Assembly: GCA_903871605.1 (NCBI GenBank)
Contig: CAIQHF010000054.1
Location: 1-52,265, forward strand
Length of the DNA stretch: 52,265 nt
DNA from: an uncultured Sphingomonadaceae bacterium
GTDB lineage: Bacteria; Pseudomonadota; Alphaproteobacteria; Sphingomonadales; Sphingomonadaceae
Direction of reading: 5' to 3'
Program-made: the position numbers and the translations under genes
Notes under the pieces: model-generated
Seen by the model: only the letters and a program-made list of their open reading frames with translations
What the model was told of the DNA's origin: nothing
The model's database searches: none
Shown here: piece after piece, positions 10,188 through 48,588 of the stretch
How positions within the stretch are numbered: the first letter of the stretch is position 1
Layout of the letters: every line of letters starts with the position of its first letter

Positions 10188-11488
10188 GCACGCAGCCCAA
10201 CGCCCTCGCCGACATCCGCAAGGACGGCTTCTTCACGCAGACGCTCGCCGACTCCGATCCCGCGGTGTTCGCCGGCGTCGAACAGGAGCTCGATCGCGAA
10301 CGCCACCAGATCGAGCTGATCGCCTCCGAGAACATCGTCTCCAAGGCGGTGCTCGAGGCGCAGGGCTCGGTGTTCACCAACAAATATGCCGAAGGCTATC
10401 CGGGCAAGCGCTATTATCAGGGCTGCGCGCCGTCGGACGTCGTCGAGCAACTCGCGATCGACCGCGCGAAACAGCTGTTCGGCTGCGGCTTCGCCAACGT
10501 CCAGCCGCATTCGGGCGCGCAGGCCAACGGCGCCGTCATGCTCGCGCTCACAAAGCCCGGCGACACGATCATGGGGCTCAGCCTCGATGCCGGCGGCCAT
10601 CTGACGCACGGCGCGCGCGCGGCGCTGTCGGGCAAATGGTATAATGCCGTGCAATATGGCGTGAAGCCCGACACGCACCTGATCGACTATGACCAGGTCG
10701 AGGCGCTCGCGCGCGCGCACAAGCCGACGCTGATCATCACCGGCGGCTCGGCCTATCCGCGCCACATCGACTTCGCGCGCTTCCGCGCGATTGCCGACGA
10801 GGTCGGCGCGATCTTCATGGTCGACATGGCACATTTCGCGGGACTGGTTGCAGGCGGCGTCCACCCAACTCCGTTCGGCCACGCGCATGTCGTCACCACG
10901 ACGACGCACAAGACGCTGCGCGGCCCGCGCGGCGGGATGATCATGACCGACGACGAGGCGATCGCCAAGAAGATCAACTCGGCGGTGTTCCCAGGGCTGC
11001 AGGGCGGCCCGCTGATGCACGTCATCGCCGCCAAGGCGGTCGCGTTCGGCGAGGCGCTGAGCCCCGAGTTCAAGACCTATTCGGCCGCGGTCGTCGCCAA
11101 CGCCAAGGCGCTCGCCTCGCGCTTGAAGGAGCGCGGCGCCGATCTGGTCTCGGGCGGCACCGACACGCATCTGGCGCTCGTCGATCTCACCCCCTTGGGC
11201 GTCACCGGCAAGGATGCCGACGAGGCGCTCGAGCGCTCGGGGATCACCTGCAACAAGAACGGCATCCCGTTCGATCCGCTGCCGCCGGTCAAGACCAGCG
11301 GTATCCGTGTGGGAAGCCCCGCGGGGACCACGCGTGGCTTCGGCATCGCCGAGTTCCGCGACATCGCCGACATGATCGCCGACGTGCTCGAGGGGCTGCG
11401 TTCGAAGGGCGAGCACGGCGATCCGCAGGTCGAGGCGGCGGTGCGGCTGCGCGTGCGCGCGCTGTGCGAGCGTTTCCCGATTTACTAA
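10184..11488 (+). CDS. glyA: Serine hydroxymethyltransferase
   Basis: PLP enzyme converting serine and tetrahydrofolate to glycine and methylene-THF. The 434-residue product shows [30 protein letters not shown] and the PLP lysine in [13 protein letters not shown]. The start [10 protein letters not shown] at 10184 overlaps the rpiB stop and has AGAAGGAG upstream. It provides glycine, the substrate of the gcv system located 12-16 kb downstream. Confidence 0.97.
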
Positions 11489-11501
11489 CGCATTCCCACA
11501 T

Positions 11502-11573
11502 CCGTTCGCACTGAGCGCAGGCGAAGTGCCGCCACCGTATCGCGTGGCCTTCGACTGCGCTCAGGCCGAACGG
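11502..11573. repeat. Family B paired inverted repeat (short form)
   Basis: Two 26-bp half-sites in inverted orientation, at 11502-11527 (CCGTTCGCACTGAGCGCAG...) and 11548-11573 (CCTTCGACTGCGCTCAG...), are separated by 20 bases. It sits between glyA and nrdR. The same half-site borders the GIY-YIG gene at 12084-12437. Confidence 0.85.
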
Positions 11574-11596
11574 GTCGGGGAGGACAGGACATAAAA

Positions 11597-12061
11597 ATGC
11601 GCTGCCCGTTCTGCGGCCACGAAGACAGCCAGGTGAAGGACAGCCGTCCGTCCGAGGACGCCGCCTCGATCCGCAGGCGGCGCCAGTGCGAGGGCTGCGG
11701 CGGGCGCTTCACCACCTTCGAGCGCGTCCAGTTGCGCGAGGTGACCGTGGTCAAGTCGGGGGGCGCCAAGCGCGAGCCGTTCGAACGCGGCAAGCTCGAG
11801 CGCTCGATCGAGATCGCCTGCCGCAAGCGCGGAATCTCGGCCGAGCGGATCGACCGGCTGGTCTCGGGGATCCAGCGTCAGCTCGAGACCTCGGGCGACC
11901 AGGAGGTCGAGGCGGCGCGGATCGGCGAGCTGGTGATGGACGGGCTGAAAGGGCTCGATCCGGTCGCCTACATCCGCTTCGCGAGCGTCTATAAGGATTT
12001 CACCGAGGCGCGCGACTTCGAGGCGTTCGCGGGCAATGTGAGCGAAGTGGGCAAGGGATGA
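11597..12061 (+). CDS. nrdR: Transcriptional repressor NrdR
   Basis: ATP/dATP-sensing repressor of ribonucleotide reductase genes. The 154-residue product has the N-terminal zinc ribbon with Cys3, Cys6, Cys31 and Cys34 (MRCPFCG...QCEGCGGRF). An ATP-cone domain follows ([20 protein letters not shown]). Length and layout match the family. In many alphaproteobacteria nrdR follows glyA; here a family B repeat pair lies between them. Confidence 0.96.
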
Positions 12062-12083
12062 CTGACGACGCGCTCTCCCACCC

Positions 12084-12109
12084 CCGTTCGTCCTGAGCGC
12101 AGTCGAAGG
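12084..12109 (+). repeat. Left terminal inverted repeat of candidate GIY-YIG element
   Basis: A 26-bp half-site starting CCGTTCGTCCTGAGC and ending GTCGAAGG, 6 bases before the ATG of the GIY-YIG ORF. Its reverse complement matches 12412-12437 at 25 of 26 positions (T versus C at position 8). Confidence 0.85.
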
Positions 12110-12437
12110 ACAGCCATGAGCTTCGCCACCTATATGCTCCGCTGTTCGGACGGCAGCTTCTACGTTGGCCACACCGACGATCTCGAGACACGGATCGCGC
12201 AGCATCATGCGGGCGCATTGCCAGGCTATACGCATGACCGTCGCCCGCTCGAACTGGTGTGGCGCGAGAGCTTCGGGTCGCGCGACGAGGCACTGTCGGC
12301 GGAACGCCAAATCAAGGGCTGGTCGCGTGCCAAGAAGGAGGCGCTGATCCGCGGCGACTGGGACGCGGTCAGCGCGGCGGCGATCCCGCCTGCCGAGCGG
12401 GAGGCGCGTGCCCTTCGACTGCGCTCAGGGCGAACGG
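12084..12437 (+). mobile_element. Candidate mobile element: inverted repeats around a GIY-YIG nuclease gene
   Basis: This 354-base segment is bounded by near-perfect 26-bp inverted repeats and contains only a small GIY-YIG nuclease ORF. It lies between nrdR and the trmJ-like coding sequence. The same half-sites occur as short pairs without a gene at 11502-11573, 25246-25328 and 47905-47987. That pattern resembles an autonomous element with internally deleted derivatives. Mobility is an inference; no target-site duplication is claimed. Confidence 0.45.
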
Positions 12438-13228
12438 AGGGGGGGGATGATGGTCCCCCGCCCCCGGAGCCCCCCCACCCCGTTCGTGCTGAGCGCAGTC
12501 GAAGCACCGCCACCCAGCCTCCCCTCATCGTCCTCGTCCGCCCGCAGCTCGGGCAGAACATCGGCAAGGCCGCACGCGCGATGCTCAATTTCGGGCTGAC
12601 CGAACTGCGCATCGTGGCGCCGCGCGACGGCTGGCCCAATCCCGAGGCCGCGCCCGCCGCCTCGGGCGCCGATCGCGTGCTCGACGAGGCGCGGATCTTC
12701 GACAGCGTCGCCGAGGCGGTCGCCGACTGCAGCCACGTCTATGCGACCACGGTGCGGCGCCGCGGCGTCACCAAGCCGGTGGTGACGCCGGAAGCGGCGG
12801 CCGCCGAGATCCACGCCGCGACCGGCCGCTCGGCAATCCTGTTCGGCCCCGAGCGGGCGGGGCTCGAGACCGACGACGTCGCGCTGGCGCGGAAAATCGT
12901 GACGGTGCCGATCAACCCCGAATTCGGCTCGCTCAACCTCGCGCAGGCGGTGATCCTCGTCGCCTATGAATGGTCGAAGCGGCAGGCGCTGGTCCAGCCC
13001 TCGATGACCGACATCGAGCCGCCCGCCTCGCAGTTCGAGCTCGACGGGATGATCGCGCAACTGGACGCGATGCTCGACGCAGCGGGCTATTTCTTCCCGC
13101 CCGACCGGCGCGTGACGACGACGCGGATGCTGCGCACGCTGCTCACCAAGCCCGCCTGGACGAGCCAGGAGGTGCGCACCGTGCGCGGCGTGCTGACGAC
13201 GCTCGCCAAGCCGCATCCGCGAGACTAG
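12116..13228 (+). CDS. GIY-YIG nuclease domain fused to TrmJ-type tRNA methyltransferase
   Basis: A 370-residue ORF with two unrelated parts. Residues 1-85 form a compact GIY-YIG nuclease of the COG2827 type: Tyr6-Met-Leu, Tyr16-Val-Gly18, Arg26, and Glu63 in SAERQIKGW. Residues 97-134 are a low-complexity linker encoded by family B repeats. Residues 135-370 are a SPOUT methyltransferase like TrmJ (ribose 2'-O methylation of tRNA position 32), with LVRPQLGQNIGKAARAMLNFGL, ILFGPERAGL and INPEFGSLNLAQAV. The nuclease has no stop codon. The methyltransferase has no in-frame ATG, GTG or TTG before its first conserved motif; the next ATG (residue 156) would delete it. Either the fusion is real, or an indel in the G8 tract (12439-12446) hides the true boundary. 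Confidence 0.85.
   Translation: MSFATYMLRCSDGSFYVGHTDDLETRIAQHHAGALPGYTHDRRPLELVWRESFGSRDEALSAERQIKGWSRAKKEALIRGDWDAVSAAAIPPAEREARALRLRSGRTEGGDDGPPPPEPPHPVRAERSRSTATQPPLIVLVRPQLGQNIGKAARAMLNFGLTELRIVAPRDGWPNPEAAPAASGADRVLDEARIFDSVAEAVADCSHVYATTVRRRGVTKPVVTPEAAAAEIHAATGRSAILFGPERAGLETDDVALARKIVTVPINPEFGSLNLAQAVILVAYEWSKRQALVQPSMTDIEPPASQFELDGMIAQLDAMLDAAGYFFPPDRRVTTTRMLRTLLTKPAWTSQEVRTVRGVLTTLAKPHPRD
12412..12505. repeat. Family B half-sites inside coding sequence (linker of the fusion)
   Basis: A half-site at 12412-12437 (right inverted repeat of the candidate element) and another in opposite orientation at 12480-12505 (CCGTTCGTGCTGAGC...) flank a G8/C-rich hairpin-forming stretch. Translated in frame they give the linker residues RLRSGRTEGG and HPVRAERSRS between the nuclease and methyltransferase domains. 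Confidence 0.85.
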
Positions 13229-13251
13229 GGCGACCACCCTTCAAACACTCT

Positions 13252-13330
13252 TGTTCTCCCGCGAAAGCGGGAGTCCAGGGCTTCAAGCGCTGCGGCTCCT
13301 CACCTGGGCTCCTGCCTACGCAGGAGCACA
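13252..13330. repeat. Family A hairpin repeat between convergent genes
   Basis: Hairpins CTCCCGC-GAAA-GCGGGAG and CTCCTGC-CTAC-GCAGGAG, with CCAGG/CCTGG inner arms. It lies in the gap between the GIY-YIG/TrmJ ORF (+) and the chorismate mutase gene (-), so it probably ends transcription from both sides. Confidence 0.8.
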
Positions 13331-13337
13331 TGAGCGC

Positions 13338-13652
13338 TTACTTCGCGTCGAACTGCGCCAGCTCATAGGCAATCGACGCCTCGACCAGCGCCTCCCACAA
13401 GGCGGCCGCGACCTCCTCGGGCCAATCGCCGTCGCGCGCATCCGCCACCATGTTGGCGATCACCTCGGCCTTGCGCGCCTCGTCGCGGACATGGCTTCGC
13501 GCGGGCTTGATCCGCGCCGCTGCACGCATGTAGCCGAACCGTGTGGCGAGCAGCGCGCCGATCGCGCGGTCGGTCGCATCGACCCCGGCGCGGACTTCGG
13601 TCATGGTGGTGCAGACTTCGGGTGACGGGAAGGATGTCATGACCGTCGCCAT
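13338..13652 (-). CDS. Chorismate mutase, monofunctional AroQ type
   Basis: Converts chorismate to prephenate for Phe/Tyr synthesis. The 104-residue, all-helical product has the AroQ pattern: an Arg in helix 1 (EVRAGVDATDRAIGALLATRFGYM) and Lys/Arg in AARIKPARSHVRDEARKAEVI. It resembles PchB-like and alphaproteobacterial chorismate mutases. I chose the ATG at 13652, which has GGGAAG about 4 bases upstream; an ATG at 13640 is the alternative. The frame stays open much further upstream but that is antisense to the next gene. Confidence 0.85.
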   Translation of the reverse strand: MATVMTSFPSPEVCTTMTEVRAGVDATDRAIGALLATRFGYMRAAARIKPARSHVRDEARKAEVIANMVADARDGDWPEEVAAALWEALVEASIAYELAQFDAK

Positions 13653-25233: not shown

Positions 25234-25245
25234 GGGTTCCCCTCC

Positions 25246-25328
25246 CCGTTCGTCCTGAGCGAAGTCGAAGGACGTGCTCCGCATGCTGCGCCCGAAGCCC
25301 GCACTTCGACTTCGCTCAGTGCGAACGG
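25246..25328. repeat. Family B paired inverted repeat (short form)
   Basis: Half-sites at 25246-25271 (CCGTTCGTCCTGAGCGAAG...) and 25303-25328 in inverted orientation, with a 31-base spacer. It lies between gcvH and the methyltransferase gene, inside a transcribed operon. On the minus strand the paired arms could form a long hairpin in the mRNA. Confidence 0.85.
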
Positions 25329-25346
25329 GTTTTTCGTGGCACGGGC

Positions 25347-31822: not shown

Positions 31823-32520
31823 GCACGACCACCGGCCGCAGCACCGGCCCCGGCGGCCGCCAGCGGGTCAAGACCGCCAAGGGCCGCACCACCGCGTCGG
31901 TGCGCTGGCTCGAGCGACAGCTCAACGACCCCTATGTGCGGCTCGCCAAGGCCGAAGGCTATCGCAGCCGCGCCGCCTACAAGCTGATCGAGCTCGACAC
32001 GCGGTTCAAGTTCCTCAAGGGCGCCAGGCGCGTGATCGATCTCGGCATCGCGCCGGGCGGCTGGTCGCAGGTGGTGCGCAAGGTCTGCCCCAAGGCGCTG
32101 GTCGTCGGGATCGACCTGCTGCCGGTCGACCCGATCGACGGCGTCACCATCTTCGAGATGGATTTCATGTCCGACGCCGCGCCCGGCCTGCTCGCCGAGA
32201 CGCTCGGCGGTCCCGCCGATCTCGTGCTGTCCGACATGGCGGCGAACACCGTCGGCCACCAGCAGACCGACCATCTGCGCACGATGGGTCTGGTCGAGGC
32301 GGGCGCGTTGTTCGCAAGCGAGGTGCTGCGTCCGGGCGGCTGCTTCGTCGCCAAGGTGCTCGCGGGCGGCGCGGATTCGGCGCTGGTCGCGGCGCTGAAG
32401 CGCGACTTCACCACGATCAAGCACGCCAAGCCGCCCGCCAGCCGCAAGGAGTCGAGCGAATGGTATGTGGTCGCGCAGGGGTTCAAGGGGCGGCCCGAGG
32501 CGCCTCCTTCGTCATCCTGA
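31819..32520 (+). CDS. rlmE: 23S rRNA (uridine-2'-O)-methyltransferase RlmE (FtsJ)
   Basis: Methylates U2552 of 23S rRNA during late 50S assembly. The 233-residue product has the K-D-K-E catalytic set: Lys55 in RSRAAYKLIELD, Asp in VLSDMAANTVG, Lys in CFVAKVLAGG, Glu in SSEWYVVA. SAM motif VIDLGIAPGGWSQV. The last residues (APPSSS) and the TGA stop come from a family C repeat that starts at 32509, so the natural C-terminus has probably been replaced. Confidence 0.96.
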   Translation: MSTTTGRSTGPGGRQRVKTAKGRTTASVRWLERQLNDPYVRLAKAEGYRSRAAYKLIELDTRFKFLKGARRVIDLGIAPGGWSQVVRKVCPKALVVGIDLLPVDPIDGVTIFEMDFMSDAAPGLLAETLGGPADLVLSDMAANTVGHQQTDHLRTMGLVEAGALFASEVLRPGGCFVAKVLAGGADSALVAALKRDFTTIKHAKPPASRKESSEWYVVAQGFKGRPEAPPSSS

Positions 32521-32600
32521 ACTTGGTTCAGGATCCAGAGACGCGGCGTATCTTCGTCGGGCGCTACGCGTCTGGATCCTGACCTTCGTCAGGATGACGG
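32509..32600. repeat. Family C inverted repeat at the rlmE 3' end
   Basis: CGTCATCCTGAAC...CAGGATCCAGA on the left pairs with TCTGGATCCTGA...GTCAGGATGACG on the right. It begins inside rlmE and supplies its stop codon. A second copy lies at 34775-34864. Confidence 0.85.
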
Positions 32601-32678
32601 CGGCGGGGGGTAGAGGCCGGGTTATTGCAGCCCCGTTACCACCCCCCATATTCCCGCCAACACAAGAGCGGGACACAT

Positions 32679-34664: not shown

Positions 34665-34674
34665 AACGGATCTC

Positions 34675-34751
34675 GTGCTCCTGCGGAGGCAGGAGCCCAG
34701 GTGAAGGGCCATGACGCCCGAAGCCCTGGGCTCCTGCTTTCGCAGGAGAAC
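34675..34751. repeat. Family A hairpin repeat
   Basis: GCTCCTGC-GGAG-GCAGGAGC and CTCCTGC-TTTC-GCAGGAG hairpins, with GCCCAGG/CCTGGGC inner arms. It lies 10 bases after hslU. Confidence 0.8.
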
Positions 34752-34774
34752 GGAGCGCCCGAACATCGAAAATT

Positions 34775-34864
34775 CGTCATCCCGACGACGGTCACGATCC
34801 GGACGCGCCGCGCTCGATAAACGGGCGCCGCGCGTCTGGATCGTGAACCGGGTTCGGGATGACG
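34775..34864. repeat. Family C inverted repeat
   Basis: CGTCATCCCGA and CGGGATGACG outer arms with CACGATCC/GGATCGTG and GACGCG/CGCGTC inner arms. It lies between hslU and the EamA transporter gene, close behind a family A element. Confidence 0.8.
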
Positions 34865-46689: not shown

Positions 46690-46767
46690 GTGCTCCTGCG
46701 CAGGCAGGAGCCCAGGGTTTCAGGCGCTGTGGCTCACCACCTGGGCTCCTGCCTACGCAGGAGCACA
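46690..46767. repeat. Family A hairpin repeat between miaB and phoH
   Basis: GTGCTCCTGC-GCAG-GCAGGAG and CTCCTGC-CTAC-GCAGGAGCAC arms with CCCAGG/CCTGGG inner pairs. Confidence 0.82.
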
Positions 46768-47904: not shown

Positions 47905-47987
47905 CCGTTCGTCCCGAGCGCAGTCGAGGGACCGGCCCCAAGCGCCGCGCCTGCCTCGCGTACCTCGACGTCGCTCGGCACGAACGG
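47905..47987. repeat. Family B paired inverted repeat (short form)
   Basis: Half-sites at 47905-47930 (CCGTTCGTCCCGAGCGCAG...) and 47963-47987 in inverted orientation, with a 32-base spacer. It lies between phoH and ybeY, ending 12 bases before the ybeY ATG. Confidence 0.85.
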
Positions 47988-48510: not shown

Positions 48511-48588
48511 CGTTCTCCCGCGAAAGCGGGAGCCCAGGGTTGCAGGCGCTGCGTCCGGAGCCCTGGGCTCCTGCTTTCGCAGGAGCAC
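48511..48588. repeat. Family A hairpin repeat between ybeY and corC
   Basis: GTTCTCCCGC-GAAA-GCGGGAG and CTCCTGC-TTTC-GCAGGAGCAC arms, with CCCAGGG/CCCTGGG inner pairing. It starts 1 base after the ybeY stop. Confidence 0.82.

Follow-up and report, generated by a model that had tools for sequence, protein, structure and literature searches.

The closest described counterpart of the locus analysed here is the system of REP or REPIN sequences and their RAYT (TnpA-REP) enzymes. The two share a gene flanked by two inverted REPs, gene-less doublets dispersed elsewhere, few enzyme genes beside many REPs, and an enzyme lineage that matches the REP type. They differ in enzyme and in tag: RAYT proteins carry a Y1_Tnp domain (PF01797), whereas the enzyme here has a GIY-YIG domain (PF01541) whose catalysis on REPs is putative, and RAYT-associated REPs are tagged GTAG, whereas the tags here are CGTC-like or CCGTTCG.

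GIY-YIG nucleases use Y, R and E as catalytic residues, and they include homing endonucleases of the I-TevI type, whose mobile genes propagate through cleavage followed by repair. The present enzyme belongs to the same catalytic superfamily as these, from which it is set apart by a single Pfam domain, no intron or intein seen, and a gene bordered by dispersed repeats. Its fold and sequence family are those of UPF0213, YhbQ, YazA and the eukaryotic Slx1, from which it differs in that Slx1, a branched-DNA nuclease, works together with Slx4. YhbQ and YazA are placed in the Slx1 family in the accessible part of one study (PMC7017083).

A second group of repeats, the CGTC REP superfamily, has a terminal CGTC tag, a stem of 8-9 bp, a loop of 4-5 nt and a CCA-like tail and, according to the accessible part of the paper describing it, its members "apparently lack a dedicated transposase" (Di Nocera et al. 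2013, PMC3733652). The text of that paper mentions neither GIY-YIG nor COG2827, and the text of a 2025 REP survey contains no GIY, nuclease or transposase. Our literature search covered open-access papers; among the matches listed, no paper linked GIY-YIG nucleases to REPs, and the single one containing both GIY-YIG and RAYT was a pangenome comparison listing.

Our analysis indicates that the nuclease and the repeats probably belong to a single system of REPs and an associated GIY-YIG nuclease, similar in plan to REP/RAYT and built on an unrelated enzyme chemistry. GIY-YIG nucleases are also the best candidate for the missing enzyme partner of the CGTC REPs, a superfamily reported without a dedicated enzyme; with a specific, small and testable enzyme assigned to each type of repeat, it would become possible to study directly how these repeats arose and spread. 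If this holds, GIY-YIG nucleases would be added to the few chemistries by which DNA repeats are dispersed, and a widespread family of small proteins would gain a role.

The nuclease gene and its repeats in the window

The window is the whole stretch of 52,265 nt analysed, contig C54 of a 4.28-Mb genome of an uncultured Sphingomonadaceae bacterium. The gene at 11597..12061 (+ strand), presumably nrdR, a name given from context in the earlier note, is followed by a left REP arm at 12084..12109 (+), an imperfect palindrome around TGAGCGCAGTCGA with its CCGTTCG tag pointing outward. The UPF0213/SLX1-like GIY-YIG nuclease domain (P0003) then spans 12116..12403 (+; PF01541, Pfam, 1.5e-17), and the right arm, an inverted copy, lies at 12412..12437 (-), inside the open frame, where it encodes 10 residues. 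The arms are identical at 25 of 26 positions, and their match can be extended to 39 nt at 87% (12074-12112 and 12409-12447). A GIY-YIG reading frame opening at 12116 between 26-bp inverted repeats, as described in the earlier note, is therefore present, although two features of the proposed 354-bp unit have to be revised. Position 12437 is not a unique right end, because a third REP copy occurs at 12480..12507 (+), immediately 5' of the TrmJ domain and again inside the frame. Nor is the nuclease frame contained in the unit: it runs without a stop codon through both right-hand repeats as a single frame of 370 aa (12116..13228, +) that joins the nuclease, a REP-encoded linker and a SpoU/TrmJ RNA methyltransferase.

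The end sequence recurs, as the earlier note had observed, in gene-less inverted pairs of the window type, one of them REPIN-like and upstream of nrdR (11494..11581) and the other at 25245..25329. Pairs of other types are also found. One at 47915..47977 is of the CGAGC..GTCGAGG variant, which also brackets L002, the other nuclease of subfamily A in this genome, and one at 13253..13329, of the GTTCTCC/GTGCTCC kind, resembles the arms of two further nucleases of the same genome (L005 and L006). Additional gene-less pairs of the CGTC and GTGCTCC kinds, at 32503-32606, 34674-34864, 46690-46766 and 48512-48588, likewise resemble the arms of other nucleases in this genome.

The repeat core TGAGCGCAGTCGAAG (up to two mismatches) occurs eight times in the window, compared with a mean of 0.29 and a maximum of 2 in 100 shuffles, and TGAGCNNAGTCGARGNNC is found 67 times genome-wide against none for the reversed pattern. 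Neighbouring copies within 60 nt are ordered plus then minus in 18 cases, minus then minus in two and minus then plus in none; the 18 inverted pairs fall into two spacings, with starts 34-35 nt (5 pairs) or 43-46 nt (13 pairs) apart. Around 112 subfamily-A nucleases, 178 REP arms within 150 bp have the tag outward and 46 inward. Among 287 distinct arm copies from relatives, the stem covaries within single arms: its positions 1-3 form Watson-Crick pairs in 252, 238 and 226 copies (maxima of 152, 129 and 114 in shuffles that ignore kinship), and the inner stem pair is T-A or C-G in 263. The arm is therefore a conserved imperfect palindrome. Three single window arms have folding energies no better than shuffled sequences, and two window pairs fold strongly (z -7.2 and -7.4), as expected of inverted repeats. 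An Rfam search of positions 11000-13600 returned only microRNA families, which we dismiss as chance matches since their scores lie far below the gathering level. At four loci of relatives (L038, L052, L055 and L097), long nested repeats place an outer CCTGAGTAG- or CCTGAGGAG-type arm around a complete TGAGC..GTCGAAG-like palindrome, an arrangement resembling the insertion of one REP into another.

The nuclease itself is a lone small GIY-YIG domain of about 96 aa, with PF01541 as its only Pfam match and no NCBIfam family at E 0.001; the earlier note described it as COG2827-like. It contains no Y1_Tnp / HuH domain of the kind that defines RAYTs. Y6, Y16 and E63 are invariant and R26 is present in at least 90% of 32 sequences, which agrees with membership of UPF0213. 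The window domain is under purifying selection, with dN/dS of 0.10, 0.18 and 0.15 against three congeners. Its structure model (pLDDT 89) best matches the UPF0213 entries 1zg2 and 1ywl, followed by Slx1 entries; judging from this model, an Slx1-like activity on branched DNA would suit a folded REP as substrate.

Bracketing of nuclease genes by inverted repeats

Seven PF01541 genes were found in the window genome: six small nucleases and a 660-residue frame (L007), presumably UvrC. By eye, repeats flank five of the small nucleases on both sides and the sixth (L003) on one side. They read CCGTTCGTCCTGAGCGCAGTCGAAGGAC in the window, CCGTTCGTCCCGAGCGAAGTCGAGGGAC at L002, CGTCATGCTGACGACGGTCAGCATCCAG at L004, GTTCCCCGGCGAACGCCGGGG at L005 and GTGCTCCGGCGAAGGCCGGAGC at L006, with a CGTC-type repeat containing CCCGGCGAAAGCCGGG at L003. 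In the automatic test, four of the six reached the threshold score of 14 (window 26.5, L002 28, L005 21, L006 23.5), while L004 (12.5) and L003 (6.5) fell below it. The whole window genome has no Y1_Tnp (RAYT-type) gene, which excludes a RAYT as the spreader of its repeats.

For subfamily A, we scanned the best 80 of 576 relatives in species genomes, a sample that leans to Sphingomonadales, for inverted matches of one 120-bp flank to the other that reach a fixed threshold. Such a match was present at 64 of these 80 loci, compared with 1 of 240 sites of the same geometry in the same loci; with 150-bp flanks, the counts were 65 of 80 and 3 of 805 other genes. Grouped by their longest neighbouring frames, the 80 loci represent 41 contexts, in 35 of which the nuclease is bracketed. 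Arms of at least 16 nt bracket 17 of 21 subfamily-A loci made up of L002 and 20 from other members of the family. Loci outside Sphingomonadales that passed are those of Methylobacter and relatives (L070, L089, L101, L108), L071, L105, L112, Dehalococcoidia (L082), Chloroflexi (L110) and Binatia (L106), phyla other than Pseudomonadota being represented by single loci only (L082, L106, L110). Loci of Thiobacillus (L103), Sulfurisoma (L072), Gallionellaceae (L092), Oxalobacteraceae (L113), Solimonas (L116) and L102 were not bracketed.

The window protein has 116 matching places in 59 genomes of the family, 32 in subfamily A and 84 others. Of the latter, 83 were taken in as subfamily B, the remaining one being a piece of a broken G007 gene beside L031. 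Bracketing was observed at 63 of the 83, compared with 2 of 498 control sites (41 of 53 versus 2 of 318 in one batch, 22 of 30 versus 0 of 180 in the other) and with 1 of 177 control genes; the 53 loci of the first batch represent 28 neighbour contexts, 20 of them with a bracketed nuclease. Example arms are CGTCATGCTGAACTTGTTTCAGCATCCAT, CGTCATTCCCGCGAAGGCGGGAATCCAG, CGTCATTGCGAGCGAAGCGAAGCAATCCAG and CGTCACCCCGGACTTGATCCGGGGTCC. A phylum-wide draw of 200 genomes gave 47 with a nuclease match; of the 30 loci listed, two had been counted before and were set aside, while the other 28 included 18 bracketed ones, versus 1 of 168 control sites. Loci without bracketing thus numbered 16 of the best 80 of 576 in subfamily A, 20 of 83 in subfamily B and 10 of 28 in the phylum sample.

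A nuclease gene between two inverted, genome-recurrent REPs is the arrangement that characterises RAYT genes. The earlier note had drawn the analogy that the nuclease is to these repeats what RAYT is to REPs, and had named unbordered copies elsewhere as the result that would defeat it; since bracketing lies far above the controls in both subfamilies, the other copies are bordered more often than expected and the analogy holds more broadly than was claimed. The same gene-boundary controls (3 of 805 and 1 of 177) exclude chance arising from intergenic position. They also contradict, together with the cognate pairing reported below, the view that this is an ordinary YhbQ-like housekeeping gene among common intergenic repeats. 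That view, which we regard as very improbable, can draw on relatives that by eye have no such repeats, namely a Cupriavidus gene, a broken Sphingomonas paeninsulae copy and E. coli yhbQ, which differs in this from the gene described here, and on the preference of REPs for intergenic places (PMC3733652, accessible part).

In the 63 bracketed subfamily-B loci, the terminal CGTC tag is found on at least one arm in 54, on both arms in 38 and on neither in 9. With the tag counted and the stem, short loop and CCA-like tail recognised by eye, subfamily-B repeats correspond to the CGTC superfamily as characterised in the accessible part of its description (PMC3733652). The repeats of the window, and of subfamily A generally, fall outside that superfamily: their constant tag is CCGTTCG-like, their stem is imperfect, and CGTC appears only in variants whose stem base permits it. 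A subfamily-B nuclease of Neisseria gonorrhoeae (L243) sits within a cluster of ATTCCCGC..GCGGGAAT repeats, which we take to be dRS3; the PLSDB gene table, which is incomplete, has no feature at this nuclease. Because such clusters are common in Neisseria, where dRS3 repeats are classed as CGTC-1 (PMC3733652, accessible part), this case carries little weight.

The contexts also bear on whether the nuclease could be a caretaker that cuts REP cruciforms or REP-bearing RNA and relieves problems of damage or expression, retained where its type of REP is plentiful but with no part in spreading it. Its SLX1-like fold, the purifying selection on it, its stable position and fusion at trmJ, and the annotation of its E. 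coli relative as a DNA damage response nuclease are all in keeping with such a function. However, caretaking gives no reason for the gene to lie between inverted copies of its own REPs in 35 of 41 and 20 of 28 contexts, and we consider it improbable. A single system of nuclease and repeats accounts for this arrangement as a gene occupying the spacer of an inverted REP pair with tags outward, of which the gene-less pairs would be the form with a short spacer.

Cognate pairing, copy number and a proposed route of spread

REP types were assigned by regular expressions picked after inspection of the repeats. In 59 genomes from 58 genera, the nearest nuclease in another genome had the same REP type at 40 of 45 typed subfamily-B loci (of 53). 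For genomes with more than one REP type, agreement was 31 of 35, compared with a mean of 10.9 and a maximum of 22 in 2000 within-genome shuffles, which exclude host relatedness as the cause of the pairing. When more loci were included (104 of 112 typed in A and 62 of 81 in B), pairing was also seen below 70% nuclease identity, in B at 43 of 62 (shuffled maximum 23) and in A at 63 of 104 (maximum 53); below 60%, both values (16 of 62 and 34 of 104) lay inside the shuffled range. The association of nuclease and REPs and their cognate pairing are near certain. Within subfamily B, three nucleases with ATTGCGAG-type repeats (L030, L120, L151) have KAGSRxKK where the other aligned sequences mostly have KxWxRxWK, and from this alignment the motif is a candidate recognition determinant.

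REP copy number follows the nuclease as well; because the genomes are related, the p-values given here serve as guides only. Genomes that have an A nuclease (21) contain a median of 78 A-REPs (3-nt and 2-nt variants summed), compared with 9 in those that lack it (38; p 3.7e-7). Y1_Tnp genes, present in 12 of the 59 genomes, make no clear difference to A-REP copies (28 vs 14, p 0.26), and the effect of the A nuclease persists in Y1_Tnp-free genomes (16 vs 31 genomes, p 3.5e-5). Exceptions occur in both directions: nine genomes have at least 20 A-REPs but lack the A nuclease, and three that possess it have fewer than 20. CGTC REPs of types T1 (15 vs 44 genomes, p 2e-7) and T3 (5 vs 54 genomes, p 9.6e-7) track their own nucleases, also after subtraction of up to four flank copies per genome (p 4e-4 and 1e-4), with one exception, G021, which has 20 T3 copies and no T3-flanked nuclease.

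Copy number is relevant to a further alternative, in which REPs are landing sites and the nuclease gene homes into the spacer of pairs spread by something else. The unit does have the plan of a REP pair whose spacer holds a gene, cognate pairing would also follow from target specificity, and insertion sequences that target REPs offer a precedent (PMC1525189, accessible part). Nevertheless, this alternative is unlikely: REP copy number tracks the presence of the nuclease, Y1_Tnp, the only other spreader sought, is absent from the window genome, and no genome among the 59 has more than three subfamily-A nuclease genes, unlike homing into dozens of sites.

In the favoured reading, a single nuclease-REP system, every lineage of the nuclease is paired with a REP type of its own, and we propose that the enzyme would bind and cut the folded REP, as a hairpin or cruciform, near the tag. 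Such cutting is likely to be structure- and sequence-specific because the enzyme is SLX1/UPF0213-like. We know of no GIY-YIG enzyme that joins strands, so spread would have to go through repair, which after the cut may copy or relocate REP pairs in trans, while the whole nuclease unit would move only rarely. The idea that the nuclease mobilises the repeats, put forward in the earlier note, stands as far as association and pairing are concerned, and mobilisation itself is likely on these grounds. In its widest form, towards which we lean with less assurance than for the single system, SLX1/UPF0213-like GIY-YIG nucleases would be an unrecognised class of repeat-dispersal enzymes, each lineage driving its own CGTC- or CCGTTCG-type REPs, among them the CGTC repeats that abound in Alphaproteobacteria and Neisseria, through cleavage of folded REPs and copying by repair, with no covalent transposase chemistry.

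The nrdR-trmJ site in congeners and the TrmJ fusion

Ten genomes of the genus were compared at the nrdR-trmJ site, and all but G064 could be scored. The nuclease is present there in four (the window genome, G066, G065 and G062, of which G062 lacks the left arm), G059, G061 and G043 have an empty junction of 1-17 nt, G060 has 94 nt of other DNA and G063 a decayed remnant. The gene is thus not a fixed ortholog between nrdR and trmJ. The insertion seems to have displaced the native start of trmJ, which in G059 directly adjoins or overlaps the stop codon of nrdR. The alignment suggested in the earlier note accordingly yielded filled and empty sites, which were too diverged for an exact insertion border or a target duplication to be obtained; the one 4-bp overlap, GTGA, between G059 and G061 may simply represent a stop codon that overlaps a start codon. 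Recent insertion of a self-contained 354-bp element between nrdR and trmJ is not supported, given that adjacency to trmJ recurs across many genera.

Neighbouring REP pairs also differ among congeners. In the gap before nrdR, an A-type pair is found in the window genome, G065 and G059, CGTC-type pairs in G061 and in G066, which is 89% identical to the window genome in this comparison, a long inverted repeat, GC-rich and of a different kind, in G062 (L168), and no repeat in G043, G060 and G063. In the gap after trmJ (the 13253-13329 site), G066 carries a different REP type, and G061 and G062 carry no REP. The site at 25245 could be scored in all but G061 and G063: the pair is common to the window genome and G066, G059 and G062 have other variants of it, G060 and G065 lack it, and other DNA takes its place in G043 and G064. 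At these fixed sites, REP pairs have thus turned over.

Of the 112 subfamily-A nucleases, 31, from many genera, have a TrmJ motif no more than 1.5 kb downstream. The trmJ-adjacent copies do not form one clean clade, because this placement changes state at least 10 times on the tree. All 31 nucleases are open in frame into TrmJ, and in 11 of them no ATG, GTG or TTG occurs between the two. From these reading frames, nuclease and TrmJ may be made as one genuine bifunctional protein whose linker comes from the repeats. In Sphingomonas parapaucimobilis (L241, outside the set of 112), the nuclease and TrmJ are annotated as separate, overlapping genes.
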